Assembly: GCF_001886735.1 (NCBI RefSeq)
Contig: NZ_CP018076.1
Span: 1,488,001-1,552,000 of the forward strand
DNA from: Sulfitobacter alexandrii
GTDB lineage: Bacteria; Pseudomonadota; Alphaproteobacteria; Rhodobacterales; Rhodobacteraceae
Direction of reading: 5' to 3'
DNA length: 64,000 nt
This document shows positions 23,191 through 39,875 of this stretch, piece by piece. The notes beneath the pieces were generated by a model. It saw only the letters and a program-made list of their open reading frames with translations, did not search any database and had not been told where the DNA came from. The first letter of the stretch is position 1. Each line of letters opens with the position of its first letter. Both the position numbers and the translations under genes were made by a program.

Positions 23191-23382
23191 ATGCGCTGCG
23201 TCGGAGATATCTGTAAGGATCGGCGCTACACCATAGTTTTTAGGGCCAACTTGTTCTCGCTCGAGTTGAAGAACTTGACAGGAACGCGACTGTATGAGCG
23301 ACAGTTGGAAGCGTGCGTTGACTACACCTTCGGATTCCAGAAGAACTGGGCTCCCGGAAACTACCCAAAGGATGTTCTGTGA
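23191..23382 (+). CDS. Possible small or remnant ORF before the SEC-C gene
   Basis: A frame of 63 aa from the ATG at 23191 (open to an ATG at 23083, 99 aa) ends in a TGA that overlaps the GTG start of the next gene (GTGA), the usual sign of translational coupling. The protein text (YTIVFRANLFSLELKN and TFGFQKNWAPGNYPKDVL) is not recognised. It could be a genuine small partner, the 3' remnant of a longer gene lost at a recombination junction, or chance. The rest of 22984-23378 shows nothing. Confidence 0.3.
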   Translation: MRCVGDICKDRRYTIVFRANLFSLELKNLTGTRLYERQLEACVDYTFGFQKNWAPGNYPKDVL

Positions 23383-24395
23383 GTGGTGATGAAAAAGTAG
23401 GTTTAATGGAGGCTCGCTCGGCTCTCCAGGCGGAGTGTTTGAGAGTTTTTCCTGTTGTTCGGAAGCAAGTAGACGCGCACCGCAATACATTTATTTGGCA
23501 AATGGACAAGGGGTTAGAAAACAGCGTATTCGGCACTCCGGTTGACCAGGCTCACAATGCAAATTTAACCACTGATCAAGTTAGGCGGATTGCCCGAGAG
23601 AATGGCAAGATATACAGCCAAGCGTGCATGGCAATCACACCAAAAGTCCTGGCTCTCTCCTCAAGCATTGAGAGCCTTTCTTATGGCACGCTTTCTCTTC
23701 ATGAAGAGCTCAACTGCTTTCGCTCTATCGTTGAGAGACTTGCAGTCCTGGAAGCATCTCTCAGAAAGATTGCGCACAAGACCAGCCTACCGGAAATAAA
23801 ATCATTTGGTGACTTGCTTGAGGTGCGAGAGTCTATTTGGCCGTTAATTGGAACAAGGTTCAGCTGGTCGGATCTTCAGGTCGTCGATTTTCCGGAAATG
23901 CCTTCGAAGACAGATTACCTTCATGATGCCGCCGAAACTCGGGTGGATCTTTCAGCGAGAAATATCCTCAATCAGATCGATAGACTTCAGAAAGAGGAAA
24001 GTTACAAGGGGATACGTCCATTCTATAATTTCTGCTGCGAGTTTGTTCACCCAAATATCGGTGACAACTTGGCGACCACCAGGAAAAAACGCATAGTAAG
24101 AACGCAGGGCGGTCAACTTGCCTACATGACGGAATACAATGAAAACCCATTGGTAACATCAAGCGACGACAGCGACTTCTTCATCCTGTTCTCAAAGGCT
24201 TACGCCTTCGGAACAATGCTGGCACGAGAGGCTGAAAGGGTAACGCTGCAATATGGGATTCTATTGAACAAGATAGAACGCGTTAACCAAAAATGCGCAC
24301 ACAAGGTGGTGAAAAGACAAAAAAATGTTTTCTCGAGGGATGACTTTTGCCCGTGCGGCTCAGGGAGAAGTATACGCGTATGTGCGTTCCGATGA
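23379..24395 (+). CDS. Uncharacterised protein with degenerate C-terminal SEC-C motif
   Basis: 338 aa, starting at a GTG that overlaps the preceding short frame. Most of the protein is helical and unrecognised. The C-terminus FCPCGSGRSIRVCAFR resembles the SEC-C zinc motif (CPCGSG followed by a CC or CH pair) but lacks the last metal ligand. SEC-C tails occur on many proteins of defence and mobile regions as well as on SecA. Codon use and base composition look more AT-rich than in the flanking chromosome, which fits transfer. An internal ATG at 23406 is an alternative start. The function is unknown. Confidence 0.65.
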   Translation: MSGDEKVGLMEARSALQAECLRVFPVVRKQVDAHRNTFIWQMDKGLENSVFGTPVDQAHNANLTTDQVRRIARENGKIYSQACMAITPKVLALSSSIESLSYGTLSLHEELNCFRSIVERLAVLEASLRKIAHKTSLPEIKSFGDLLEVRESIWPLIGTRFSWSDLQVVDFPEMPSKTDYLHDAAETRVDLSARNILNQIDRLQKEESYKGIRPFYNFCCEFVHPNIGDNLATTRKKRIVRTQGGQLAYMTEYNENPLVTSSDDSDFFILFSKAYAFGTMLAREAERVTLQYGILLNKIERVNQKCAHKVVKRQKNVFSRDDFCPCGSGRSIRVCAFR

Positions 24396-24654
24396 GAATG
24401 ATACTGAGAAAACAAGCCCAGAATTGGACGTGCCATGCAGGAAGGGCGGGTTGCCTTACTTAGACCTTGCGCCCCATTCACCTTGCCATGTTGGCAAACT
24501 TCGCATCGCTGACCGGAACGCGGCAAGACGCCTGGTGTCGAGAGCGGCCCTAACCGAACCTTGAGCCGCATCCAAAATGTTGCGTGGAAGCAATCTTTTG
24601 ACGACGTTCATTATTTGCGTTCCGTTACGGTGCGCTTTGAATGGGTCATGTCGG

Positions 24655-25104
24655 TTACCAGAAGAAATTCCATTCAACACGAGCCAAAATCTTTTTCTCT
24701 GGCGCTGAGAGCTGGTGCCCGGCTTGGCCGTTACAGATTGGGAAGGCGCCATGCATTCTTAGGAAATCGCTCAAGAAGAAACTTTCGACGTCAAATAGGT
24801 TGTCATTGCCGTAGTTGCGTAAAACTTCTGATGAGTAGGTGGTGAACTTCACTCTGTGGGTATTGGCGTAATTCGAAATCCCCAAATTACCCGACTGCCC
24901 TGTGAGGTGCCCCCGCAAGCGCATCGCAATACTATTCTGCTTTGACTCGCTCATCCCAATATAGATCAAGCGCGAGGGTCGAAACGGGTAGGCAATGCGC
25001 AGTTCGGTTAGAAAGATGAAGTAGATGCCCGCCACGCCCTGAACGAACTTGACCTCTTGCTCACGAAAATTGTAGGTTCGTGTGAAAATTATATTCATAT
25101 ACAA
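24655..25104 (-). CDS. GIY-YIG nuclease-fold protein
   Basis: 149 aa. The motif pair is GIYFIF (about residues 26-31) and LIYIGMSE (about 46-53), followed by the basic IAMRLRGHL region with the catalytic Arg position. A later ESFFLSDFLRMHGAFPICNGQ carries the metal-binding Glu and the terminal Asn of the fold. This is the minimal single-domain form, so it could be a nuclease with specificity supplied by a partner. AAGGA lies five bases before the ATG. Its start is only 23 bp from that of the divergent 72-aa gene, and it probably belongs functionally with the SMC-like ATPase operon. Homing or repair roles are alternatives. Confidence 0.72.
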   Translation of the reverse strand: MYMNIIFTRTYNFREQEVKFVQGVAGIYFIFLTELRIAYPFRPSRLIYIGMSESKQNSIAMRLRGHLTGQSGNLGISNYANTHRVKFTTYSSEVLRNYGNDNLFDVESFFLSDFLRMHGAFPICNGQAGHQLSAPEKKILARVEWNFFW

Positions 25105-25127
25105 ATCCTTAATGGAGCCGTTGATTG

Positions 25128-25343
25128 ATGGCTATCGAGAAAATTCAGTCCGCCAGCGAGGTGCTGGCAGCCTTCATGGGCGAACAGGCGCAAGATGAGA
25201 GCCTTGACCAAGCCACCATTGCGGTCATTGCTGGCCTGCGCGGCGACGACAAGCTCACCCGCACCAACCTCCTGCGCAAGCTCGACGAGGCTCGCAAGGC
25301 GGCACTCAAAGAAGGTGGCAGGCAACGCGAAAGCAGATCATGA
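25128..25343 (+). CDS. Small protein preceding the SMC-like ATPase
   Basis: 71 aa from the ATG at 25128 (GGAG upstream; a TTG codon directly precedes it). The sequence is helical and charged, with IEKIQSASEVLAAFMGEQ at the start and LTRTNLLRKLDEARKAAL near the end, and no recognised domain. Its stop overlaps the ATG of the ATPase gene (ATGA), so the two are made together in a coupled way. Small coupled partners of this kind often act as regulators or adaptors of SMC-like or Rad50-like defence ATPases. That role is inference only. Confidence 0.65.
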   Translation: MAIEKIQSASEVLAAFMGEQAQDESLDQATIAVIAGLRGDDKLTRTNLLRKLDEARKAALKEGGRQRESRS

Positions 25344-27736
25344 CCAAGCTGCGCAAGCTCTCCGTCTCGGGGTTTCGCGGGGCGCGCTTCGCGCTGCCGC
25401 TCGATTTCACCAACAAGAGCAGAAGCCTTGCCATCTTTGGAGAGAATGCCGCCGGGAAGAGCACCATCACCGACGCGCTGGAGTGGTTTCTGACCGACCG
25501 TGTCGGCCATCTCTGGCGTGAAGACTGCAAACAGGAGGCCCTGCGCCACGTCCTGATCGCGGAAGGCGATGACATCACGGTTGCGGTAGAATTTGTTGGA
25601 GATAGCCTCGCAGGCGAAAAACGCCTCTCTTCCGCTCTGAAGACAAGCACTGACTTGGCCAACGACAACACTCGTCGCGTTGTCGAAGGGCTTCAGGACG
25701 ACCGTATCATTCTTCGTCATGCCGATATTGTCGCCTTCCTTGACCAGCAAAAAGGCGCAAAGCGCAAGGCCATCGCCGATATCATCGGCTATGAAGAGAT
25801 AAACAAATTCCGGGATGCGATCCAGGGCACGCTCAATGCGCTCAAACGCGAGTCAACCTACACCGGAGCAAAGTCACATTCTGTTACTCTGGAAGGCGAC
25901 ATGGTCCGTGGCGTCGGCCAGATCGTGCCGGATCGGCAAGCATTCCTGACCATTGCTCAAAACATTGCCGCGCCTTTCAAAATCGGCACTGAAATTACGG
26001 ATCAGGCCACCTTCGCAGAAGCCGTGAAAGAGTTGAACGCCCTCGGCAACAGTGAAGAAAAGATCAAGAAAGCGCAGCGCCTGGATCAACTCGTCAAAGC
26101 GTGCAGCGCCTTGGCCGCCGAGATCACCACCTTCGCCCCAGACACCGAAGCTTTCGTCACCAGCTACAATGCACTCGCCAAGGAGAGCGAGAGCGTAAAC
26201 CAGCTCCGGCTGAGTGACTTTCTGGGCAAAGGGAGCGCCGTCATTGAATCCGAGGACTATGTCGATGATGCCTGTCCATTCTGCTTGAGCGCTTACGAGC
26301 TTGGCCTCTTGCGGGGCGAAGTTGCCAAACGCATCGAAGACATGAGCGAAATTCAGGAGCGCCTCGAAAACGCCAAGGCTCAGAAGGACTCGGTGCTACA
26401 GGCTATCCTCTCCATTGGAATCCAGGCCAAGGCTATCGGTGAGACATACAACGACCTCACAGGCTTCGATGATCTGATGGCCGAAACCACGACGGCGCGG
26501 AAGCTCTTGCGAGCGGCACATCAAGGCATCACGGCTGCCTACGAAGGCCTTTCTGTCTACGGAGCTCCCGATGGCTTCGAAGATGGCATTGCACGTCTCC
26601 AACATTGCTGTGAAACTGCTGCGGCCAAAGCTGAAGAAGAGGCGGGCAAACTCGGACTTAGCGAGCAGGAACAGAACGTTGCAACCGCGCTATCGACACT
26701 CCGGATGCTGGAGAGCCAAGTCCGCGATTATGAACGTGCACAGCGTGTCATCGATGCCTATGAAGCACAAATACTGACGCTTGATGCGATCTTTGAACGT
26801 TTCATTAAGGTCCAGAACGCGGCCCTTCAATCGGTTCTTGATACGATCAGTGCCGATGTCGGGAAATTCTATGCCAAGCTCCACCCCGATGAGAGCGTCG
26901 ATAACGTTCGACTGACGATGGTGGGCGAGGAAGGGGTCGAGTTTCAGTATGCTTTCCACGGCCACGAGGTTCAGCCGCCCCGGAAATATTTGAGCGAAAG
27001 CCATCTGAATTCTCTGGGTGTGGTGCTATTCCTCGCCAATGCCCGCATCTTCAATAAGCAAGCGAAATTTCTGGTGCTCGATGACATTGTCACCAGCTTC
27101 GACACTTCCCACCGGCGCCGGTTGCTGCGCCTGCTGCGGGACGAATTTTCTGACTGGCAGATTATCATTCTGACCCACGAGAATGTCTGGTTCGAAATCA
27201 TCAAGAAGGAGATGGCCCAGCACGGCTGGAAATTTCATGAAGTTTGTGCGGACGGCCCAAACGGCATTGTGTTAGACGACTCCCCGGCCAACCTCAAAGA
27301 GATCATCGCGCAGAAGAAGGGGAAGGATGATGTTACCAATGATCTGCGTAAACTACTGGAGTTAGTGCTCAAAGAGATCTGCGCCTCATTGGAGGTCAAA
27401 GTAGCCTTTCGTTTCAATGAGTGGAATGAAAAGCGCATGGCCGACGAGCTAATTGGCCAGCTTCGATCTACGCTCGGCGACAAGTCTCCCGATCTCAAAA
27501 AGCATGCTGTATTTTCTGATCTGGCCGGGTCCGCGCTCGTAGCCAATCTCGTGTCGCACGACAACAAGGACAAGATAGTTGGCGAAGATATCGATGTGCT
27601 CTTGGAGGACATTGAGAAGCTTACCGAACTCTTCACGTGTGCCGAATGCGATCGCTACATTTCGGCGAAGATTGAAGTCCCCGGCGAGAAAACTATTTCC
27701 TGCAAGTGCGGAAAAACGCGAATACCTTGGAAGTAG
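25340..27736 (+). CDS. SMC/Rad50-like AAA ATPase with CPFC hook and C-terminal zinc ribbon
   Basis: 798 aa. Walker A GENAAGKST is at 34-42. A central insert of about 400 residues contains CPFC at 312-315, like a Rad50 zinc hook flanked by predicted coiled-coil stretches. The ABC signature-like LSESHLNSLG is at 551-560, Walker B FLVLDD at 577-582, and an H-loop THEN near 612-615. The C-terminal region (about 665-760, helical) has LVSHDNKD, and the protein ends in a zinc ribbon (C767-x2-C770 ... C788-x-C790). The layout resembles chromosomal SMC-like defence ATPases (RloC, and other overcoming-lysogenisation or Abi-type proteins), but no known nuclease domain is clear. The coupled 72-aa gene and the divergent GIY-YIG gene are its likely partners. 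Confidence 0.8.
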   Translation: MTKLRKLSVSGFRGARFALPLDFTNKSRSLAIFGENAAGKSTITDALEWFLTDRVGHLWREDCKQEALRHVLIAEGDDITVAVEFVGDSLAGEKRLSSALKTSTDLANDNTRRVVEGLQDDRIILRHADIVAFLDQQKGAKRKAIADIIGYEEINKFRDAIQGTLNALKRESTYTGAKSHSVTLEGDMVRGVGQIVPDRQAFLTIAQNIAAPFKIGTEITDQATFAEAVKELNALGNSEEKIKKAQRLDQLVKACSALAAEITTFAPDTEAFVTSYNALAKESESVNQLRLSDFLGKGSAVIESEDYVDDACPFCLSAYELGLLRGEVAKRIEDMSEIQERLENAKAQKDSVLQAILSIGIQAKAIGETYNDLTGFDDLMAETTTARKLLRAAHQGITAAYEGLSVYGAPDGFEDGIARLQHCCETAAAKAEEEAGKLGLSEQEQNVATALSTLRMLESQVRDYERAQRVIDAYEAQILTLDAIFERFIKVQNAALQSVLDTISADVGKFYAKLHPDESVDNVRLTMVGEEGVEFQYAFHGHEVQPPRKYLSESHLNSLGVVLFLANARIFNKQAKFLVLDDIVTSFDTSHRRRLLRLLRDEFSDWQIIILTHENVWFEIIKKEMAQHGWKFHEVCADGPNGIVLDDSPANLKEIIAQKKGKDDVTNDLRKLLELVLKEICASLEVKVAFRFNEWNEKRMADELIGQLRSTLGDKSPDLKKHAVFSDLAGSALVANLVSHDNKDKIVGEDIDVLLEDIEKLTELFTCAECDRYISAKIEVPGEKTISCKCGKTRIPWK

Positions 27737-28081
27737 GATCGGGCCCGACCTTTAGCGAAAGAAAATTTGGGTGGTATTCAACCGACGACTGAAGGCGTTT
27801 CTAAACCTTTTCGGGCCACGACGATGATCGTCCAACCTGCTCACCGTCCGACTGCAACACCCATGTCTTTGAGCCTTGATTGCCTCGTTGAGTGCAAGCG
27901 CAACGAACGACCGCTTCCCGCCCTTCGAGCTGCAGATGGCAGGCCATGCTTCGGCCTGAAACATATCAACGAGTGCACGTGAAGGTGATTCTGGCCTTGT
28001 TCAATTGACCTTGCTTCGCGTGGCTGGCTTAAGGTCGGTGCTCCGCGCCAATGCTACCTGCCAGCCCCGAGGAGGCCCTTC
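27737..28081. other. Gene-free stretch between the ATPase and KptA genes
   Basis: 345 bp with no credible coding region, no strong hairpin followed by a T-tract, and no repeat. It probably holds the kptA promoter. Confidence 0.5.
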
Positions 28082-28624
28082 ATGCCGAGCCCCAGTCGCC
28101 TGCTTACGCTCGTGCTTAGGCATGAGCCGGAAAAAATCGGTATCCAGCTCGATGCTGCCGGTTGGACGGATGTTCCGCTTCTGCTGCGTGCCATGAAGCG
28201 GCAGGGGCAGGCTATCTCATTGGCGGAACTTGAAGCGATCGTCGGTGAGGACAACAAGAGCCGTTTCACGCTGTCGGATGACAAAAAACGTATTCGCGCG
28301 GCGCAAGGGCATTCGGTTCCAGTTGATCTTGGTTTGTCGCCACAGCTGCCTCCGCCCGTTCTCTATCACGGCACCGCCAGGCACTATCTCGATCCAATTT
28401 TCGTGGAAGGCTTGGTTCCCGGAGGACGGCAGCTCGTTCATCTGAGTTCCGACGTTGAGACTGCGACACGCGTTGGCGGCCGCCACGGCAAGGCCGTGGT
28501 CTTGTCTGTGGATTGTGAGGCCATGGTGACTGAGGGTCACGAGTTCTTGGTTGCCGACAACGGTGTCTGGCTGACAGCCTCTGTGCCAGCCAAGTTTCTG
28601 GGCTTTGTGCCGATTTCAGAGTAA
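28082..28624 (+). CDS. kptA: RNA 2'-phosphotransferase, Tpt1/KptA family
   Basis: 180 aa, the standard length. The opening SRLLTLVLRHEPEKIGIQLDAAGWTDV is the Tpt1 N-terminal lobe. RFTLSDDKKRIRAAQGHS contains the catalytic Arg and RxxxGHS. YHGTA and LVHLSSDVETATRVGGRHGK form the ART-type NAD-binding lobe. The family removes an internal 2'-phosphate from RNA using NAD+, giving ADP-ribose 1'',2''-cyclic phosphate. Bacteria have no known fungal-type tRNA splicing, so bacterial members are thought to act on damaged RNA or on ADP-ribose chemistry. Here it sits between a hook ATPase and a restriction-like gene, so repair or immunity to RNA-targeting toxins is a fair inference. Confidence 0.88.
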   Translation: MPSPSRLLTLVLRHEPEKIGIQLDAAGWTDVPLLLRAMKRQGQAISLAELEAIVGEDNKSRFTLSDDKKRIRAAQGHSVPVDLGLSPQLPPPVLYHGTARHYLDPIFVEGLVPGGRQLVHLSSDVETATRVGGRHGKAVVLSVDCEAMVTEGHEFLVADNGVWLTASVPAKFLGFVPISE

Positions 28625-28638
28625 TCTCGGCAGCGCTT

Positions 28639-30741
28639 TCACGCTGCTTCGGCTTGGTCCATCTGACGCTCCAACGCTTGTCGTGCCAAGCCGACGACGT
28701 AAGCAAGGTCTTCCATCTTGTTCAGCCGGACCTCCGAGTTGCCGTTGCCCCACCGGCCAACGCCCGTCACGTCTTCAACCATTCCTTGCGGATCGTTGAT
28801 GTCGTAGGGCTCGATATTGAGCGAGATGCGCAGGCCTTTCGCTTGGGGCACGACATCCGCAAAGTTTGTTTCGGCCTTAAAGGCGACATAGAGCTTTAGG
28901 AATTCGCGGGAAACACAGGGATCGAGGGCAAGGAGCCGCTGCTCAAAAGCGTCGAACAGTTCTCTGCTGTGGCCCCCTGATAGGTGGTGATGATCTTGGA
29001 TCGTGTATCCCGTCGTCGGCACATCCTTCGCCACGTTCATGGCATCGAGTTCGGCATCCGTTAGCACTGGTGCTGCCCAGACTTTTGTCGCTTCCTTTGC
29101 CAGCTTTGCGGCGCGCGCCTGAATGGCTTCCTCGTTCCATGCCTCAGTCGCGCCAAGGCCGTCATTCACGCGGAGCGGGCTGTGCTTGAAGCCATTCTCC
29201 ATGTCGCGCTTCTTGCGGAACGGGTGGTTTCTGTATTCGGGATTATAGCCGGTAAGGGTCAGGTTGCCGAGAGTGTGCAGCCAGCGCTCCTGGACCTGTT
29301 CAGCCTCAGGACCAAGCTCAGCCTGCCACTCGGCGGAAAGGTTAGGGTCTTGGGGCAGGATATGTTCGATCGTGTAATCATCCACATGCACGCGCTCTTT
29401 GCGGCCATGATTTTCAAAGCGGCGAAGCCAGTAGCTGCGTGGCGGGAAGTTGTAGAGGTCCCGGGTCTTCAGTTCTTGGATAAACTCTTCATCGCGCGGG
29501 AAGCGCCGATAAGACTTCATGCCAAAGAAGTAGGTCCGGACACTGCTGAGGTAGTCCGCCTTGTCGATGGAGCGCGCGAAGTTGGCAAAGGTTTTGTTCA
29601 GCGAGTTGGTCGGAATGGAGCAGATCGCACGACGGAAAACATATGCCTCCACCATACGCAGCACCTCGTGGAATTCTTCACAAGTCAGGCGCCCGTTATC
29701 GAAATCATCGAAGACCTCAAGCAAGAAGGGATAGGCCACGTCGACCTTTAGCTCGCGGATATCTTGGAATGCCTCGGCCAGCTTCGGGTCGGTTTGGTGG
29801 CCAAGCGCGATGACACAGTAGAAGCGTGCATAGCTGCGGACCTCCTTGACCAGATCCTCTATCGTGCCGCCTCTGGACTGCACTTGGCGTGCATAAGCTT
29901 TGTAGGCCTCATAGACATCTCCCAATCGGGGAATATTGCCTGTGCGGACCGTCAGATAATGGCGCATGAAGCTGTCAAAATGGGCCGTATAGGCGGCCTG
30001 GCCGAAATCTTGCTCCATGGGGTGCCAGTAATGCTCGTAGAGCCTTGTCTGGTAGTCCGGCTCAAGCCCCATGAGAATGAAGTTCCGGATAAGGTCTGCC
30101 TGACTGAGCTCGCGCCCGGTCGAGTTCATACTTTCGAAGATGAGCTGGGGATTATCATGTTCGCGGCTCAGCGCGATATCCACCATGATCAGCTTGCCGA
30201 GCCCCTTGCAGATCGTCTCGACGACAGCCTCTCCTGCCGCCAGGCGGTTCTTGAACGCGTCATAGTTTTCGACGATGCGGTCGGATTTTGGTGCGGGGTA
30301 ATCATGCTGACCGACGATGGCTTTCAAGGTGTCACGGTCGGTGCGGGTCAGCAACAGCTTGTAAAACTCATCACCACTGCGTCGGTGGTTGGTCAGGAGT
30401 GTCTCTCGGATTTCGTCAGCCGAGAAGCCCTCTACAGGCTCGCCATCACCCACAGTGTCGGCGAGGGCCGCCAGTAGCAATGTGATGGTGGTCAGGCGCT
30501 GCTGACCATCGATGACCAGGTTTGGAGCGCGCTTCGTGTTGTTAGACAGCCCATCTTCAATGTAGACGATGGAGCCGATGAAGTGCACATCGATACCGTC
30601 TTCCGATCCAGCTCGATAAACATCATCCCACAGCTGGGTGCATTCTTTCTCGGTCCAGGAATAGGTTCTTTGATAGATCGGAATGACAAATCTTGGGGCG
30701 GCTCTAAGGAACTGGAGGAGGCCGGCTTCGGTCGCTTTCAC
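28639..30741 (-). CDS. GmrSD-like type IV restriction protein (DUF262-DUF1524-DUF5655), single chain
   Basis: 700 aa. The N-terminal DUF262 (GmrS-like, ParB-like NTPase fold) shows IPIYQRTYSW at 20-29 and LVIDGQQRLTT at 75-85, then FESMNSTGRELSQADLIRN near 202-220. The DUF1524 (GmrD-like HNH) part has IEHILPQ at 458-464 and HTLGNLTLTGYN at 489-500. The last about 110 residues (from LSGGHSRELFDAFE) match a DUF5655-type tail. Family members use NTP to cut modified phage DNA, such as glucosylated hydroxymethylcytosine DNA. All motif residues appear intact, so it should be active. It converges with kptA, 14 bp between stops. It is the clearest antiphage gene in the island. Confidence 0.85.
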   Translation of the reverse strand: MKATEAGLLQFLRAAPRFVIPIYQRTYSWTEKECTQLWDDVYRAGSEDGIDVHFIGSIVYIEDGLSNNTKRAPNLVIDGQQRLTTITLLLAALADTVGDGEPVEGFSADEIRETLLTNHRRSGDEFYKLLLTRTDRDTLKAIVGQHDYPAPKSDRIVENYDAFKNRLAAGEAVVETICKGLGKLIMVDIALSREHDNPQLIFESMNSTGRELSQADLIRNFILMGLEPDYQTRLYEHYWHPMEQDFGQAAYTAHFDSFMRHYLTVRTGNIPRLGDVYEAYKAYARQVQSRGGTIEDLVKEVRSYARFYCVIALGHQTDPKLAEAFQDIRELKVDVAYPFLLEVFDDFDNGRLTCEEFHEVLRMVEAYVFRRAICSIPTNSLNKTFANFARSIDKADYLSSVRTYFFGMKSYRRFPRDEEFIQELKTRDLYNFPPRSYWLRRFENHGRKERVHVDDYTIEHILPQDPNLSAEWQAELGPEAEQVQERWLHTLGNLTLTGYNPEYRNHPFRKKRDMENGFKHSPLRVNDGLGATEAWNEEAIQARAAKLAKEATKVWAAPVLTDAELDAMNVAKDVPTTGYTIQDHHHLSGGHSRELFDAFEQRLLALDPCVSREFLKLYVAFKAETNFADVVPQAKGLRISLNIEPYDINDPQGMVEDVTGVGRWGNGNSEVRLNKMEDLAYVVGLARQALERQMDQAEAA

Positions 30742-31347: not shown

Positions 31348-32131
31348 CGTTTCTTGGCCGGGGCTCATTTTACTTCAAGTTGGGCGTCAGGGCAGGGCGT
31401 GCAGATGGCTGGAGTGTAAATAGGATCATTCTTGGCACCGCCAAAATGTTCCGGTTTCGCTGACCGTCATAGGACGGCAGGCATGCGTCCGGAAGATGCC
31501 TGCAGGAACATCATTTGTGAGGTGCGCACGTTCGGTTCTAAAGAGCTGCCTTCTGCTTCCGAGAAAGTGCGACCTGTCTCTGGTATTTCTCGACCAGTTT
31601 CTGGTTTTTCTCGACCGGTTTCTGGTTTTTCTCGACCTTCCTCTGGTATTTCTCGACCTTCCTCTGGTTTTTCTCGACCTATCGCCCGGTAAAACTTTGA
31701 AATTAAAGGCCGAAATGCCCCTCTGAATCTTAGAATCAAGAGAATCTATATGAAAGGGGCGGAATGGCCACCTGCGATGTATGCCGCAGCCTCGGCGTAA
31801 GTTCTTGATTGACCCGTTTGGGCCACCGGCGAAACGTCCCTATTTCAATTCGGAGGCGGGCAACAGATGAAGAGCGCGGGAGTATCCCGATCAGGAAAAT
31901 TATAAAGATGCAGGTCGGAGCTGTCTTGCTTTTGAGAGGTGAACTCCGTCGTTCTGGGAAACGCGGCTCGGAAGTCCGCACTGATGACGACGTGCCTTCG
32001 TCGCTGTCGCACATTCTACGGTCCAGCTCCCAAGCGTCACCCGAAATGGCTTGAAGGTTTGGCGCTGTCGCAATTCCAATTCCTCACTGATGCGCGTAGG
32101 TTTGGACTGACACAACCTTGGGAAGGCCAAG
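31348..32131. other. Gene-free stretch containing a 21-bp tandem repeat array
   Basis: 784 bp without a convincing gene. The repeat array at 31569-31680 is the only clear structure. Frames of 80-90 aa occur on both strands, but they consist of the repeat or lack any family character. Confidence 0.5.
31569..31680. repeat. Tandem array of 21-bp direct repeats (five units plus a partial)
   Basis: Units begin at 31569, 31590, 31611, 31632, 31653 and (partial) 31674. Each reads TCGACC, four variable bases, TCTGGT, then (T/A)TTTC. The period is exactly 21 bp with no spacers, so it keeps reading frame and helical phase (two turns). It would code a heptad SRPVSGF on the + strand or a GREKPE(T/E) heptad on the - strand, but no gene around it is convincing. 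Iteron-like DNA binding sites are the other reading. Confidence 0.85.
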
Positions 32132-33063: not shown

Positions 33064-34173
33064 ATGGATACACTCGCAGATATCATCACTCGAGGAAACG
33101 CCGCAGCTTTGTCCGGCGCGCCCTTCGTAAACAACTGGCCGCAAGCGCGCGGCGCCATCTATATGATCGGTTGCGCTGGCGGTGGCCTTGACCAGGTGCG
33201 CTTGACTGAATTCGAAGAGCGGTTTCCGCAAGACTTCGAGGAGCTGGCTATGACGATAAAGATGGCTCTTCCAAGCAAAGAGACCTACGAACTGGCCCAT
33301 CTTCAAGTGACGCGCGTCCTATTAGGTCTGGGGCTCATAGACGGTCCTTGGGAACAGCTTCGAGTATTGATCCGCCGGGCAGGCCGAGATCATGATATCG
33401 AGAACGCGCTGTATGCGCTGCGGCGGGCGGCTCTCGATGCAGGCCTTGCACCGTCGGATATCCAAACGGACTGGGTCTGGTCTCTCGACGCCGAGTTGGC
33501 GGGGGGGCTGGCGCGGCAATCCTTGCGCCGCGCTGCGACAGTGTTCAACGAGCTATTCGATATCCCGGACGTTCTGGAAGCGGGCGTGCTGCCGGCAGAG
33601 CGGATCGGGGCGCCACCGACCTACGACCGTCAGGGCCGACCGCTGTGTCCGCTTCCGCCGACGCTGTCCGGCTACCTCTCCGGTAAGGAGACCTCGAAGA
33701 CGGGGCTGCCCCAAGTATGGCAGGCGATTTTCGTTTCGGGCGCCGTTGAACTTCCCGCTGATCCCTCGGCAGACGATCTTCTTGAACCTCAAACGTGGGA
33801 CCGGATCGCGGCGCTCCCGCAATCGACGACCGGGGTAGGGGCGGCGAGCTGGGCACAATACCTCCTTCGCACAAAACGCGTGCTCCTGCCTTATGCCACA
33901 ACCGCGCTTCCGGAGCGCTTGCCTGATCGTTTGGAGGCAATGCTCACGCGTCGAACTGATCGGAGCGCCCTTTGCGCTTTGTGGGGGGCTATGCGCGCGC
34001 AGGGCGTGACCGACGCCGGGCCGGAAGACCTGCTTAGCTCCGCGATTTGGGAGGGCCTGTGGGCGAACGTGCCGGAAGCGACAAAACCAGCGACATGGCG
34101 GCAATACAAGTCGCGGGCGAAGAAGGTCCTGAACGAGCATTGCCGTCAAACCCAAGGCGACAGCCTTCCATAG
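33064..34173 (+). CDS. Hypothetical protein of the recombinase cassette
   Basis: 369 aa, no recognised domain. The N-terminal part (MDTLADIITRGNAAALSGAPFV...) and the long helical middle give way to a C-terminal part with repeated short helices (RSALCALWGAMRAQGVTD; WEGLWANVPEATKPATWRQYKSRAKKVLNEH). The last segment looks like an integrase SAM-like or core-binding domain, but the catalytic Arg, His-x-x-Arg and Tyr are absent, so it is not an active recombinase. It lies 85 bp before the HTH-like gene of the cassette. A role as a DNA-binding accessory protein is possible. Confidence 0.55.
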   Translation: MDTLADIITRGNAAALSGAPFVNNWPQARGAIYMIGCAGGGLDQVRLTEFEERFPQDFEELAMTIKMALPSKETYELAHLQVTRVLLGLGLIDGPWEQLRVLIRRAGRDHDIENALYALRRAALDAGLAPSDIQTDWVWSLDAELAGGLARQSLRRAATVFNELFDIPDVLEAGVLPAERIGAPPTYDRQGRPLCPLPPTLSGYLSGKETSKTGLPQVWQAIFVSGAVELPADPSADDLLEPQTWDRIAALPQSTTGVGAASWAQYLLRTKRVLLPYATTALPERLPDRLEAMLTRRTDRSALCALWGAMRAQGVTDAGPEDLLSSAIWEGLWANVPEATKPATWRQYKSRAKKVLNEHCRQTQGDSLP

Positions 34174-34258
34174 TGCGTCACTCGACGACATGGCCTGTTT
34201 TCCTATCGAGTGACAAAATTCGGCCCCATCTCCTCTCCGAATTCAGGAGATGCGGGTC

Positions 34259-34909
34259 ATGCCAACAACACTATCAACGGAACGGAGAGCTGAACTGGAC
34301 GGAGCGCTGGCAAGCGGCTGCCAGCTGACTTCTGCGCAATTGGCTTATCATATCGGTGTTGATCGCAAGAACGCGCCCAAAATCGCCAAGTCATTCGGTC
34401 TCGAGCCCGAGGGGCGGCATTACCCTTGGCGTCGCATCTGGCGGTGCCTTCACAATACAGAAGGCGCTCTTCTGCCCGCGCATTTGGTGGGGTTGAAGGA
34501 CAGGTATCCTGGATCAGTGCTTTTGGCTGGTGTTGAGGATCTGGAAGTCGCGCTGCGCGTTCCGCTGATGTCCTTCGCGAGGATGTCCGAGGCTCTCGGT
34601 CGAAGATCCGACACCTTGAGCAAGGCCCTGCGTGAAGGGCGTGAAACTCTCCCTTTTCCATTGATCACGCTTGGGCCGCGCACGCGGGTCTTTCGCAAGC
34701 TCGAAGTCCGGCTATGGGCCGAGGAAGAGATCCGGCTCGATCTACCAAAGGCCCTCGGCTGGACCACTCCGGCACCGGAGCAGGTCGAAGGCGGGGTCGA
34801 AGAGACGGAAGGTTCGTCGTTCCTCGATGAGGACCCACTTTCGGCTGATCCTGCCAAAAAAGCCATTTTCGGACAGTTCGCCGGGCCCAAACAGAAGCCT
34901 GCGACATAG
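34259..34909 (+). CDS. Hypothetical HTH-containing accessory protein of the recombinase cassette
   Basis: 216 aa from the ATG at 34259, chosen because AGGAG lies nine bases upstream; an ATG at 34250 directly abuts that site. Residues about 22-50 (QLTSAQLAYHIGVDRKNAPKIAKSFGLEPEG) look like a helix-turn-helix, and a second possible one is at SFARMSEALGRRSDTLSKALREGRE. The tail after about residue 165 is acidic and probably disordered. It is followed by the 635-aa recombinase gene after 121 bp. It is a candidate excisionase or directionality factor for the two recombinases, which is inference. Confidence 0.55.
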   Translation: MPTTLSTERRAELDGALASGCQLTSAQLAYHIGVDRKNAPKIAKSFGLEPEGRHYPWRRIWRCLHNTEGALLPAHLVGLKDRYPGSVLLAGVEDLEVALRVPLMSFARMSEALGRRSDTLSKALREGRETLPFPLITLGPRTRVFRKLEVRLWAEEEIRLDLPKALGWTTPAPEQVEGGVEETEGSSFLDEDPLSADPAKKAIFGQFAGPKQKPAT

Positions 34910-35030
34910 CCGGAAAAAGGTCGAACTCCCCCTTCTTTCCGGCACAGGGAAACGAGTCAGAGAATGACCTTTCCTGCGACATTACCGGAAATCAGCGACT
35001 TTAACGGAACTTACGCAGAGAGAAGACCAA

Positions 35031-36938
35031 GTGACTTTCCCATTTATGCTACCAACGACGACTGAGCCGAAACGCCCATCAGAGGTCCGCAATATGCAGG
35101 ACGTCTGGGATTACTTTGCTTGCCAAGCGCCGGATCCGGCGAAGGCAAAAAAAGATGTCCCGGAAGGGTGGCGCCTGCAATATCTGACGAAGCTGAAGAG
35201 TCACTGTGGGGGGGGCCCTCTGGCAATGATCTTCGCGCATGGCGATATGCTGGCCGAGTTCGACGGGGCCTTTCCTAAGGTGCGGAAAGGCGTGCATCCG
35301 CGCCCGGACCTGCCGCAGAATTTGGAAACCTACAAGAAGTGGCGGCGGCAATGTCGCAAAGCCATCGAGATTGCCACGGGTGCTGCCAGCGAGAAAGCGG
35401 AGCTGCGGGCGCGGCAGGACGGCTGGGCTGATCTCCTTGTGGCGATCAAACTGCACACTACGGATGGGGGCATCGTGCATCATGCCGCGGCCAGCCCCGT
35501 CGTGACCCTCGCCGATGTAGGGCGACGTGCGGGAGTCTTGCCGCATGAATTGGCTGAGGAGGGCATCCTGGATCGCCTCGAAGCGTCCTTTGGGACAGCC
35601 CACGACCTTAAGGCGGCTCGCAAAGCCCAGAGCTTTTTACGGGACTTCGCTTGTATCCCTGAGATCGGCGCCGTGCTGCCAAATTCACCTGTGGAAGTTT
35701 TTCCCATCCGCCGGTCGCACGCAGCGATCCCTGCGCATATTGAGATCTACTTGGCGCAACTCGTTAAGCGCGCAGGTGGAGCAAAGGACGAGGTTTCAGG
35801 TGGCGACAGCGATGATGTTGGTCCTACAACAAAGCAACGCTGGTTTGCGGCCCTGCGTCATCACATCCGAACTTTGCCGCATTGTCCGGAAGAGCGGGAC
35901 CTCGGCTACACAAAGCCCATTTCCAATCTCGAAACGATTGACGATCTGGCCGGGTTGTTTGCGCGAGAGCATCTCTACGCCACATTGCGGCGAACAAAGG
36001 AAATGGAGCACCTACCAGGACACATCTGCCATGCCTCTGCCTATCAATATTACACCGACATCCTTCGGATTCTCTGGTCGAATAATCCCGAAACTGATGA
36101 CTTCGGGGAGCAGATCGAGCAGGATGCGCCGCAGCTGATCGACGCACGAACACATCGCGCGATCAAGAATTGCCGTATCATGACGCAGGGGCGCGAACTC
36201 GCCAATGGCATGACCAAGAAGAACCAGGAATGGTGCCAGGCGCTTGTGCAAGACAAAGCGAAACGCGTGCGATTTCGTCGATTGCATTTGAAGATGATGG
36301 CGATGGCAGAAGCCATTTTTGATGCTGCCGCTGCGGAGGGCCGAACGCTTACAGCGACGGAGATCAATCGGGTTCGACAACTTGGCACCTCTGCCGCCGC
36401 CTGCGCGATCGAGGTTGCCGGTCGGCCTATTCGCCTCGGCAATGTTCTCGGTTTGAGACTTTACGGCTCGCGACAGAACCTGTCGACCAAGGATCCGAAC
36501 TACAGCTTCACGCTGTATGCGGATGAGACAAAGTCGGGCAAAGACGAACCAAAGACACCGCTTGTCGCCGCGCTCGGTGGCCCGAAGGTGATGGCATGGT
36601 ATTTGAAGAAGATCCGGCCGCTTTTCCCGCACCACGAAACGAACATCTACTTGTTTCCAGCAATTATGACGGCCGGGAAGAGGCTTTGTGACAAGACATT
36701 TGATGCTTGGTTTCAGCGCGCGGCATCGGCCGCAGACCTGCCAATGACGTTTCACCAGTGGCGGCACGGCTACGCCTCGCTGCTTCTCAGCGCCAACTGG
36801 AATAATCTGCCGCTCGCTGCGGAGATGCTGGGCAATACACCAGGAGTCTGCGCGAAGAACTACGCGTGGATCGATAAAGAGCGCTTGATCCTCAAAGGGC
36901 AGGCGGAAACTCTCGCCGGACTGGAGGCCGACCTATGA
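35031..36938 (+). CDS. Large tyrosine recombinase/integrase family protein (1)
   Basis: 635 aa from a GTG (an ATG five codons in is the alternative). The catalytic part is C-terminal: AGRPIRLGNVLGLRL holds the first Arg region, TFHQWRHGYASLLLS is the His-x-x-Arg box, then AAEMLGNTP, and the likely nucleophile is the Tyr in KNYAWID close to the C-terminus. The N-terminal 400 residues carry core-binding and unknown domains, and the length recalls the TnpB recombinase of Tn554-type elements. It overlaps the next recombinase by 4 bp (ATGA), so the two are co-translated, as in elements that use two or three recombinases together. Confidence 0.72.
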   Translation: MTFPFMLPTTTEPKRPSEVRNMQDVWDYFACQAPDPAKAKKDVPEGWRLQYLTKLKSHCGGGPLAMIFAHGDMLAEFDGAFPKVRKGVHPRPDLPQNLETYKKWRRQCRKAIEIATGAASEKAELRARQDGWADLLVAIKLHTTDGGIVHHAAASPVVTLADVGRRAGVLPHELAEEGILDRLEASFGTAHDLKAARKAQSFLRDFACIPEIGAVLPNSPVEVFPIRRSHAAIPAHIEIYLAQLVKRAGGAKDEVSGGDSDDVGPTTKQRWFAALRHHIRTLPHCPEERDLGYTKPISNLETIDDLAGLFAREHLYATLRRTKEMEHLPGHICHASAYQYYTDILRILWSNNPETDDFGEQIEQDAPQLIDARTHRAIKNCRIMTQGRELANGMTKKNQEWCQALVQDKAKRVRFRRLHLKMMAMAEAIFDAAAAEGRTLTATEINRVRQLGTSAAACAIEVAGRPIRLGNVLGLRLYGSRQNLSTKDPNYSFTLYADETKSGKDEPKTPLVAALGGPKVMAWYLKKIRPLFPHHETNIYLFPAIMTAGKRLCDKTFDAWFQRAASAADLPMTFHQWRHGYASLLLSANWNNLPLAAEMLGNTPGVCAKNYAWIDKERLILKGQAETLAGLEADL

Positions 36939-38371
36939 CGCGTCGTGCCGCTTTGTTGAAAAGACCGCATATGCAGGTCTTGCTCGACCATCCTGAAATC
37001 GAGGCCCTCTCCGACACGGAAATCCGCGTCCTGGAGGGGTTCATGCGGTTCTGCGCCGAACATCGGTTGGCTGATCCGAATGGAGGTGACGTAAGGGCCT
37101 GGTGCCGTCTGGATAATGTCGCCTCAGATAGCCTCCCAGAACTCGCTGCAGCGCTGCGGCGCCTTGGGGTCGGCAGTGACCTCCTGAACGATCTCGAGAT
37201 CGCCCACAGCGCGCAGGATCGTAAAGCACGGTTTCGAGGGGTTCCGAAGGGCGCGACGCGCACCTTCAAACGCGTGGTTTCGGTTCCGCTCGCTGACCTA
37301 CCTGACGACTGGCAGAGAACGCTGCGACGCCTGCGATTTGGAGAGGCCTACGCCCCCTCGATCATGACGCGGATGGAATCTCGCCTTGGCATGTTCGTCT
37401 GGTCCGCGAAGCGTGCCGGATGTCCCGTAGACCTTGCGGACACGGTAGCTCTTCGGGCTCTCTACAGTGATCTGCGAGACCGATCGATCACTCGGCAGCG
37501 CGAGAGCGCCAGAAAGAGGGGCCTCAAAGACGACGTCGACACCCCTCGATGGGCCTACCTGCGCTCGACCTGGGAAGAGCTGCGACGCTTTGCGTGCGCC
37601 CATGGAATGCCGGATGAGCTCTGGGACAAGCTTACGGTAACTTATTCCGTGCTCGTCACAAAAGAGGGTCGGCAAGCCGCCGAGAAGTTTGCAAAAGCGG
37701 AAGCTGCTGGGACCCGAACCGAATTGCTCAAAAACGCTGAAGCCATGTTGGTGTTGGCTGGGAATATTGATTGCCCGCACATACGTCATGCGATGCGCAA
37801 CCGCGCGGCTGCAATTGCCTTGGGCTGTGGTATCCCCGCGCGCTCAGCTGATGTGCTCGTGCATCACCGGTTCGGGGTGGGGATCAGTTACGAACCCCAC
37901 CGGAACGCTTACAGGTTTCGCTATACGGCAAATAAGACCGCAGGCAGCACCGGCGTCCGAATCGATGTTCCGCTGTTGCCGTGGTGGAACAAGTTCATCG
38001 ACGCGCTCATCCTGCAAGACGACGATCCGCGTTACCTGGGTTCTTTGCGTGCGATGCTCATTGCGCAGCAACGTCCGCTTTATGTGCACTACGATGGCAC
38101 GCCGGCGACCTACGCATGGTATAGCCGCATGTGGTCGATCGTCACGGGAACTGGCGGGCATATCGCGCGCACGCTGATCTACGACGACGCCATCGAGCAG
38201 GGCGCTGAGGGTATCCAGTATGCTCGGCTGCTGAATGGGCACGCTCCGACGAGTCCGATCGTCCAATCCTATGAGAGCGAGCGCTTGAGGCGGGAGCGGG
38301 TTTTGCAGGCGCAAAGCGCTATGGCTGTCTTGTTCGGTGACGATGAAGAAGACCTCGCGGACTGGGATTAG
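36935..38371 (+). CDS. Tyrosine recombinase/integrase family protein (2)
   Basis: 478 aa. The first catalytic Arg lies in GIPARSADVLVHH. A strand pair with RYTANKT holds a possible catalytic Lys. GGHIARTLIYDDA is the His-x-x-Arg box. LLNGHAPTSPIVQSYES provides a GH pair and the probable Tyr nucleophile. These residues are in the right order but in unusual sequence surroundings, so it is a divergent recombinase. It is coupled to the preceding recombinase by a 4-bp overlap and ends the cassette; about 300 bp without a gene follow before the PIN gene, which is encoded on the other strand. Confidence 0.7.
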   Translation: MTRRAALLKRPHMQVLLDHPEIEALSDTEIRVLEGFMRFCAEHRLADPNGGDVRAWCRLDNVASDSLPELAAALRRLGVGSDLLNDLEIAHSAQDRKARFRGVPKGATRTFKRVVSVPLADLPDDWQRTLRRLRFGEAYAPSIMTRMESRLGMFVWSAKRAGCPVDLADTVALRALYSDLRDRSITRQRESARKRGLKDDVDTPRWAYLRSTWEELRRFACAHGMPDELWDKLTVTYSVLVTKEGRQAAEKFAKAEAAGTRTELLKNAEAMLVLAGNIDCPHIRHAMRNRAAAIALGCGIPARSADVLVHHRFGVGISYEPHRNAYRFRYTANKTAGSTGVRIDVPLLPWWNKFIDALILQDDDPRYLGSLRAMLIAQQRPLYVHYDGTPATYAWYSRMWSIVTGTGGHIARTLIYDDAIEQGAEGIQYARLLNGHAPTSPIVQSYESERLRRERVLQAQSAMAVLFGDDEEDLADWD

Positions 38372-38672: not shown

Positions 38673-39875
38673 TCATTCTTCGGGTTGGTCGTCATCGAGC
38701 CAAGCGTCTTCCGGTTCAAAGACATCGACTTCGCCCAATTCAATTTCGTGCTTCGGATCATCAATTTCACTGTCCAGATAGATGATCTCCTGATCATCCG
38801 TCCCAATGCCGTATATGTCGACAGTGATTGTTGCGCGAACCCTCATGCCCTCATCAACTTCGATGCACCGCCCGCCCATGCTAACGGACTCTTTGTCGAT
38901 GCCGTCCCAAACAGAGAAATCGAGTTCGACCATAACTCTAACGACCAATCCCAAAGGCATGCTCAGGACAAGTCGAGCCGCCTGATCTTCCTCACGATCC
39001 TCGAAATCGATAACATTGATTTCATCCTCTGGTGGCCAATCAATGCTCTGTAGTTCGCCTGCCCACGTGAAGACTTCTGCCTCACCAAACGACGGATAAG
39101 CGGAAGCTGAAAATTCAAGATTTTCTACGCGCAGCGCAAGGTTTGAAAATACCTCATCTGAACCGTCCCCCTCTTCTACCAGCCAAGTGTGAACCGCCAT
39201 CTTGAGGACGGGCGGCGCGTTTCGTATCAGCGCCAACGCCTTCTCAATTTCTGGCACAATGTAGAGGTTTTCGGACTTTTCGCAGTATGCTCGCCAGTCA
39301 CCGTCCTTCGACACGACAAGGACTCCAGTGCCGCGTTCCACTGCGGCGCATTCGAGAGCGTTCAATGCAAGAGCGTCTGGAAACTCGTCTTTTTTTCGTC
39401 CGGTGCCAAAGGGTGGTTCGCCAGAAAAGTAGGCGTCAAACAACGTCGATGTGTCGACCAGGGAATGATCATCAATGACCTTGCAACCGCTTTCGGCCAA
39501 ATATTTGTCCCAACGCTCTTTAGCTATCTCACTCGCCGATTTTCCCCCGGTAATCTGATCAAGAATTTCATCTCTAGTAGGTTTCTGGGTATCAAAAGCA
39601 AAGAGGGCCTTCCCGACCTCTTTCTTTGCTTTCTGCAAGGCAACTTGCGCTGCATTTTCGAGGTGGTTTTCGACCTCTTTCGCGACAGTGCTCGACAGCA
39701 TGTAGTCGAAAGAAAGCGGTTTCAGCCGCGCCGTAGCCTGCATTGCCGCCGAGTTCAAGTTGAGCTGTTTCTGATCGAAGATACTCGTGTCGATCGAGAT
39801 CGCGGTAATTCCGCCATCCGCAAGCAGTTTCTTGAGCTCTTCTTCGTCGGCTATCGGCATTAAAGAATAAACCAT
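38673..39875 (-). CDS. PIN-domain (DUF4935-like) protein
   Basis: 400 aa. Residues 25-195 form a PIN-type ribonuclease fold with the acidic set Asp29 (ISIDTSIFD), Glu67 (TVAKEVENH), Asp163/Asp167 (KKDEFPDALAL) and Asp191/Asp193 (VVSKDGDW). The remaining about 200 residues are beta-rich and very acidic, unrecognised, and may hold the activity in check or bind a target. PIN proteins cut RNA. Long members of this class occur as stand-alone toxins or defence effectors. No antitoxin gene is adjacent. Start 39875 or the in-frame ATG 15 bp further in are both possible. Confidence 0.75.
   Translation of the reverse strand: MVYSLMPIADEEELKKLLADGGITAISIDTSIFDQKQLNLNSAAMQATARLKPLSFDYMLSSTVAKEVENHLENAAQVALQKAKKEVGKALFAFDTQKPTRDEILDQITGGKSASEIAKERWDKYLAESGCKVIDDHSLVDTSTLFDAYFSGEPPFGTGRKKDEFPDALALNALECAAVERGTGVLVVSKDGDWRAYCEKSENLYIVPEIEKALALIRNAPPVLKMAVHTWLVEEGDGSDEVFSNLALRVENLEFSASAYPSFGEAEVFTWAGELQSIDWPPEDEINVIDFEDREEDQAARLVLSMPLGLVVRVMVELDFSVWDGIDKESVSMGGRCIEVDEGMRVRATITVDIYGIGTDDQEIIYLDSEIDDPKHEIELGEVDVFEPEDAWLDDDQPEE

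Follow-up and report, generated by a model that had tools for sequence, protein, structure and literature searches.

A 64,000-nucleotide (nt) stretch of the Sulfitobacter alexandrii genome (NZ_CP018076.1, positions 1,488,001-1,552,000, forward strand), called the window here and numbered from its first letter, carries three adjacent genes for a GIY-YIG nuclease-like protein, a protein of 71 amino acids (aa) and an SMC/Rad50-like hook ATPase, and these three constitute a conserved module. The trio was found in 11 loci, of which 8 look intact, with ATPase identity falling to ~25%; the genes stand together in two arrangements, the trees of nuclease and ATPase agree, and the motifs of both proteins are kept. 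An earlier note, made from the letters of this DNA, had put the genes forward as a candidate undescribed defence module; the three-gene observation is confirmed and the defence interpretation is partly supported. With a probability of about 0.5, the module is a mobile three-component conflict system, most likely directed against phages or plasmids, in which the ATPase would sense DNA, the small protein would couple and the GIY-YIG protein would cut. The architecture is like that of Lamassu/ABC-3C systems with an RloC-like tail, and the module is a full member of neither.

Conservation of the three-gene module

The GIY-YIG gene keeps constant company. Searches with the GIY-YIG protein reached seven distinct places, and in 7/7 it lies beside the small gene and the ATPase gene, so that the separation from the ATPase which would have spoken against the earlier note was not seen. 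Loci L002, L003, L027 and L052 were reached through the ATPase, the GIY-YIG gene of L027 being detected by both tblastn and hmmsearch, and the small gene is also present in L048 and L052. Three loci are damaged: a contig end truncates the ATPase of L024 (at the contig start) and that of L026, which also has a stop codon, and the ATPase of L003 is frameshifted. These three were counted for co-occurrence only and left out of the trees. A search with the GIY-YIG protein alone found it in 5/390 genomes of the order (the window included), a profile search added one new genome among 398 of the phylum, and a single match was found in 72,556 plasmid records.

In the window the GIY-YIG gene is divergent from the small gene and the ATPase gene, as described earlier, and the same holds for 9/11 loci in all; in L048 and L027 all three genes instead run in one direction as an operon that begins with GIY-YIG, continues with the small protein and closes with the ATPase, their ends overlapping. 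That the partnership survives this change of orientation argues strongly for a working unit. In the nine divergent loci the start codons of the GIY-YIG and small genes are 25-29 nt apart, probably too little for two separate back-to-back promoters, and the promoters therefore probably lie inside the opposite gene. Promoter and terminator scans gave nothing beyond what shuffled sequences gave, with no promoter-like site in the 29-nt gap of the window, and no notable fold was found in that gap.

In a tree of 20 ATPases, rooted at the midpoint and with L027 and L048 on long branches, the 8 intact ATPases that accompany a GIY-YIG protein fall on one side of a branch with support of 100/99. Identity alone fails to separate this clade: the L027 ATPase is 24-25% identical to that of the window and 43% to that of L048, itself ~30% identical to the window's, yet L027 has a GIY-YIG gene and groups in the tree with the other loci that have one. 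When the 8 ATPases and the 8 GIY-YIG proteins are each given a tree, both trees recover the same four pairs. One pair (L014 and L052) unites genomes of different families, a sign that the three genes may be transferred together.

The GIY-YIG superfamily is recognised by its GIY...YIG motif and by a catalytic Arg, Glu and Asn. The GIY-YIG proteins of the module are single-domain proteins of 147-155 aa, and the catalytic set (G-I/L-Y, YIG, R60, H64, E105 and N123) is kept in 11/11 of them: in 8 proteins compared together, in L048, compared separately, and, by eye, in L027 and L052.

The small partner and the hook ATPase

The three open reading frames (ORFs) lie where they had been placed, with small start corrections only. 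The small ORF stands, its length being 71 aa from the ATG at 25128 rather than the 72 reported, and the start taken for the GIY-YIG gene is common to its relatives. Translational coupling of the small gene to the ATPase gene, also proposed in the earlier note, is in keeping with a 4-nt overlap of stop and start. Across the family, an ORF of 58-93 aa ends no more than 26 bases from the ATPase start in 21/21 loci examined, with a 4-base overlap in 12/21. The 20- and 21-member counts given here leave aside L038 (an annotated ORF lacking the C-terminal domain), L031 and L058 (more distant), and L030, L057 and L032 (incomplete). Since a small ORF before a large one is common anyway (33 of 104 large ORFs from 15 sources, some ATPases among the 104), the case for the partner rests on homology: 9 small proteins from the GIY-YIG clade and 10 from a distant set, which leaves out the Bacteroidota proteins of L013 and L041, match each other at the profile level with a probability of 85.7 and a score of 32.1, the maximum in 50 shuffles being 12.1. 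No Pfam family above cut-off was found for the small protein of the window or for 8 others, and among solved structures the best match to the window's protein was no better than E 0.7.

The pair of small protein and ATPase is a wider family that also exists without the GIY-YIG gene. Close relatives of the window's ATPase show 60-87% identity in one alignment (85-92% for either half of L003, where the gene is frameshifted), and many others, at ~18-25% identity, occur in Rhodobacterales, Bacteroidota and haloarchaea and on plasmids of Rhizobium and Bradyrhizobium; 9 of the 49 plasmid records with an ATPase match were examined. Viral contigs yielded four weak partial ATPase matches and nothing for the GIY-YIG protein, and phage records yielded nothing for either. 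Where a viral contig had a readable ORF, it resembles, by eye, a Rad50/SbcC-type phage protein, and these matches were set aside.

The SMC-like head, the CPFC hook and the C-terminal CxxC...CxC ribbon that had been read from the ATPase are all confirmed. SMC_N and AAA_23 match above the Pfam cut-off, and AAA_13 falls below it (30.8 bits against a cut-off of 36). A CPxC hook is present in 20/20 family ATPases compared, and the insert flanking it would form a coiled coil. A Cys-rich C-terminal ribbon is likewise present in 20/20, with all four Cys in 18 and the last one missing in L048 and L027. A search for a named system ended as the earlier note had supposed, with no curated name reached: in NCBIfam the 25 listed matches, of 27, are all far below their cut-offs, and PADLOC gave no match for the small protein or the GIY-YIG protein and generic matches for the ATPase. 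The top PADLOC match of the ATPase is an LmuB profile, PDLC03859 (E 6.5e-27, residues 20-637), which is again on top for four other ATPases of the wider family (L013, L016, L027 and L039), where it is equally unspecific. As PDLC03859 also matches 5/5 AAA_13 proteins of the RloC/PrrC type (E 6e-14 to 8.5e-21), it marks the hook-ATPase type and not Lamassu, and membership of Lamassu on the strength of this match was dropped. LmuB calls resting on PDLC03859 alone are unsafe more generally.

Two earlier claims about the ATPase are not supported, namely the lack of a clear nuclease domain and the lack of an obvious likeness to RloC. A diverged HEPN domain of the kind found in RloC/PrrC seems to occupy residues ~650-765, judging by a structural model (predicted local distance difference test, pLDDT, 73.8), profile similarity to the C-termini of AAA_13 proteins and VIA matches to HEPN proteins, in lists where the absence of a match proves nothing. 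The succession of ATPase, predicted coiled coil with CxxC hook and C-terminal HEPN-like domain is an RloC-like layout. The canonical Rx4-6H motif is absent from the window's ATPase, which has A-N736-x3-H740 and no Arg 5-7 residues before the His, and by eye the motif occurs in 2/20 family ATPases. Without the canonical catalytic arginine, activity of the domain is uncertain. A search for PF20815 found no match in 61 genomes, nor in 14 control genomes, and is thus uninformative. The related ATPases of L013 and L041, on Hymenobacter and Fibrella plasmids, have RNEVGAH, a canonical HEPN motif, ahead of their zinc ribbon; both have an upstream partner of ~80 aa and no GIY-YIG gene, and in L013 a 642-aa gene and an MBL-fold gene follow.

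Table 1. Parts of the module in window coordinates; residue numbers are those of the ATPase.
Feature	Position	Strand	Basis or remark
GIY-YIG nuclease-like protein, 147 aa	24655..25098	-	Motif-based; ATG at 25098
Divergent intergenic gap, 29 nt	25099..25127	.	
Small helical partner, 71 aa	25128..25343	+	ATG 25128; profile match between close and distant versions
SMC/Rad50-like hook ATPase, 798 aa	25340..27736	+	SMC_N and AAA_23 above Pfam cut-off; alignments
Walker A GENAAGKS, residues 34-41	25439..25462	+	ATPase motif
CPFC hook motif, residues 312-315	26273..26284	+	ATPase; invariant columns in one family alignment
Walker B LVLDD, residues 578-582	27071..27085	+	Asp in the position of the catalytic Glu of many ABC ATPases
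HEPN-like helical domain of ATPase, ~residues 652-765	27293..27634	+	R670, E674, N736, H740 and N742 inside
Zinc ribbon of ATPase, C767-x2-C770...C788-x-C790	27638..27709	+	C-terminal, after the HEPN-like domain

Known systems and competing explanations

In Lamassu, a hook ATPase and a small middle component are thought to govern a separate effector, and LmuB has ~650 aa and generally carries Gln in place of the Walker B Glu (PMC10586767). The module resembles Lamassu/ABC-3C/DdmABC systems (LmuA-LmuC-LmuB) in this division into hook ATPase, small middle component and separate effector, in the gene order of L048 and L027 (effector, small protein, ATPase, the middle component being such by position only), in its CPxC hook and in the LmuB profile being the best, though an unspecific, match for the ATPase head. 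It differs in that the effector is a stand-alone GIY-YIG protein of 147-155 aa with no room for the variable C-terminal docking domain of LmuA, in that its gene is divergent in 9/11 module loci, and in that the ATPase, at 798 aa, has an extra HEPN-like domain and a zinc ribbon, with Asp in Walker B (LVLDD). GIY-YIG is not mentioned in the passages of the Lamassu account considered (PMC10586767).

In RloC, linear DNA and the ATPase switch on a C-terminal nuclease, mutations suggest that the hook regulates this nuclease, and the A. baylyi protein has 826 aa (PMC3874168). The module's ATPase shares with RloC/PrrC, in which an ABC ATPase is fused to a HEPN anticodon nuclease, the ATPase head, the C-terminal HEPN-like domain and a similar size, and with RloC also the predicted coiled coil with a CxxC hook; it departs from them in lacking the canonical HEPN arginine, in its C-terminal zinc ribbon, in its AAA_13 score (30.8 against 36) and in having a constant ~70-aa partner and a separate GIY-YIG nuclease. 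In the Dnd and PbeABCD systems a coiled-coil ABC ATPase (DndD or a CxC ABC-ATPase with DndE) likewise always comes with a small protein, and GIY-YIG (URI) and HEPN are among the varying nucleases in the neighbourhoods of Dnd-type ATPases (PMC10853773). The hook of the module is CPxC (CPFC), whereas that of the CxC ABC-ATPases is CxC and DndD has none; DndE consists of two ribbon-helix-helix repeats, and the 71-aa partner has no Pfam match above cut-off; and the PbeC match to the ATPase is weak (E 5.5e-5, residues 3-86). Septu (PtuAB, also retron-Septu) pairs an SMC/RecF-type ATPase with a separate small nuclease, the PtuB nuclease being HNH. In the module the nuclease is GIY-YIG, and the PtuA matches listed are confined to residues 3-103 of the ATPase. 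GIY-YIG is a domain of one Escherichia coli defence system (PMC9519451), and the three-part combination is unnamed in the titles and abstract openings of open-licence literature on GIY-YIG with RloC, HEPN, Lamassu and ABC-3C. Because it has some features of Lamassu and of RloC and lacks others, the module is regarded as a new variant of hook-ATPase conflict systems.

As a conflict system, the module could work as follows. The hook ATPase would be the sensor, a dimer held by the CPFC hook and the ATP-bound heads and able to bind DNA that is foreign or broken; the 71-aa protein, as a constant co-translated adaptor, would hold or gate the complex; and the GIY-YIG protein, recruited or licensed by the ATPase, would be the DNA-cutting effector. 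The HEPN-like domain might serve as a diverged RNA-binding or docking platform, or as a second, RNA-cutting weapon as in RloC. Several observations weigh against this proposal. The GIY-YIG fold was assigned from motifs, a Pfam match below threshold and a low-confidence model, for which Foldseek lists unrelated APOBEC proteins first, at E 0.4 or worse; strong support falls on 1/5 inner branches of the GIY-YIG tree; and the module is rare, as the count of 5/390 genomes of the order indicates. A GIY-YIG protein of this type was not found in 12/12 distant loci (L011-L013, L016-L018, L028, L029, L037 and L039-L041; flanks of 1.5 to ~8 kb), so that the wider family cannot depend on it as its sole effector. 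The picture is made less neat by L057 (G507), whose ATPase, cut by a contig end, is ~24% identical to that of L048; a profile finds no GIY-YIG there, and the ORF upstream, of 68 aa, gave no match to small-protein queries. It is also made less neat by the more distant L058 (G623), with no GIY-YIG by profile and only 65 residues aligned by tblastn at E 0.013. Finally, the role may be one in DNA repair or plasmid maintenance.

Among other explanations, the RloC-like layout of the ATPase could mean that foreign or broken DNA activates its HEPN domain, that RNA (e.g. tRNA) is then cut and translation stops, with the small protein as brake and the GIY-YIG protein only attacking or opening the invader's DNA beforehand. 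This explanation is the main alternative, although it is considered unlikely. A reading of the trio as an addiction module of islands and plasmids, in the manner of a toxin-antitoxin pair, would make the small protein the antitoxin of an ATPase-HEPN toxin and the GIY-YIG gene a passenger; the small ORF directly before the ATPase in 21/21 loci and the plasmid-borne relatives agree with this, but in one clade the GIY-YIG protein keeps all its catalytic residues and its tree agrees with that of the ATPase, which is unlike a passenger, and the idea appears improbable.

Similarly doubtful, and held to be quite improbable, is a reading in which the trio serves mobile elements as a complex for DNA repair or structure resolution, pairing a motor like SbcCD with a nuclease like UvrC/Slx1 and playing no part in immunity. 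The Rad50/SMC-like head favours such a complex, as does the fact that structure-specific nucleases are common among GIY-YIG enzymes. Against it, the module is rare and patchy and lies in mobile or restriction-rich surroundings, and no Mre11/SbcD phosphoesterase match was found among the six proteins of 23379-30741 scanned, in line with the earlier view that this is no standard Rad50/SbcC pair.

The three-component conflict system remains the preferred reading. A wider proposal is advanced tentatively, at somewhat short of even odds: that a hook ATPase bearing a HEPN-like domain and a zinc ribbon, constantly paired with a partner of ~70 aa, defines an undescribed immune family, which in one clade has a separate GIY-YIG DNase and which links the fused RNA-cutting effector of RloC with the exchangeable separate effector of Lamassu/ABC-3C. 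Hosts of the pair include Alphaproteobacteria, Bacteroidota and haloarchaea, and most members lack the canonical HEPN arginine. If the function is immunity, GIY-YIG joins the effectors commanded by a hook-ATPase sensor, and the family offers a natural series for studying whether a fused RNA-cutting domain and a separate DNA-cutting enzyme stand in for one another or act as complements. The module escapes present defence profiles, and its description would allow certain genes that at present bear no label but 'AAA family ATPase' to be assigned to a system.

Genomic surroundings and neighbouring genes

The module lies in a low-GC stretch of the window: in 2-kb segments the GC fraction is 0.50-0.57 at 22-33 kb, compared with 0.61-0.69 to the left of 22 kb and 0.63-0.74 beyond 45 kb. 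The stretch also has, beside tRNA-Asn, a gene that resembles an integrase at a score below cut-off. A second tRNA-Asn end for the far edge of the island was searched for and not found, and a search of the flanks within the genus gave no clean empty site. Elsewhere, the locus on an Aliiroseovarius plasmid (L010) adjoins TniQ, TniB and a Mu-type transposase, L025 has the same set by Pfam, L014 is surrounded by a DNA methylase and ResIII and SNF2 helicases, L003 has a large serine-recombinase ORF nearby, and a phage terminase lies near L002. Mobile defence cargo typically has neighbours of these kinds, and the genomic company would fit a role in defence.

Just downstream of the module in the window is a gene for a KptA/Tpt1 RNA 2'-phosphotransferase (28082-28624), followed by a GmrSD-like protein (28639-30741; GmrSD_N, GmrSD_C and a C-terminal DUF5655) with strong PADLOC matches to Orf5 and HEC-06. 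These two and a SEC-C-like neighbour occur beside none of the relatives compared, a set that did not include L027, L048 and L052. Short ORFs of near-identical tandem repeats (PVSGFSRP and similar), open on both strands, lie at 31432-31739. Neighbouring co-directional ORFs of 369, 219, 635 and 478 aa (33064-38371), with a weak phage-integrase match in the 635-aa one, are possibly a group of recombinases, and a PIN_12 domain protein is encoded farther right in the same island, at 38673-39875.

ATPase pieces and other pairings occur at further loci. In L015 and L004 only C-terminal pieces of the ATPase are present, the other two genes being absent by tblastn. At L058:1524-6688 (G623) the hook ATPase is overlapped by a 96-aa upstream ORF and followed by a 779-aa ORF that resembles, by eye, a restriction-endonuclease and NTPase protein, a possible swap of effector. 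On a conjugative plasmid (L012:4804-11233) the small protein and ATPase precede a 1240-aa gene that has no assigned function, and on a Roseibium plasmid (L040:4288-8257) the pair has as neighbours a gene of the DarT family and one for a RES-family NAD+ phosphorylase.

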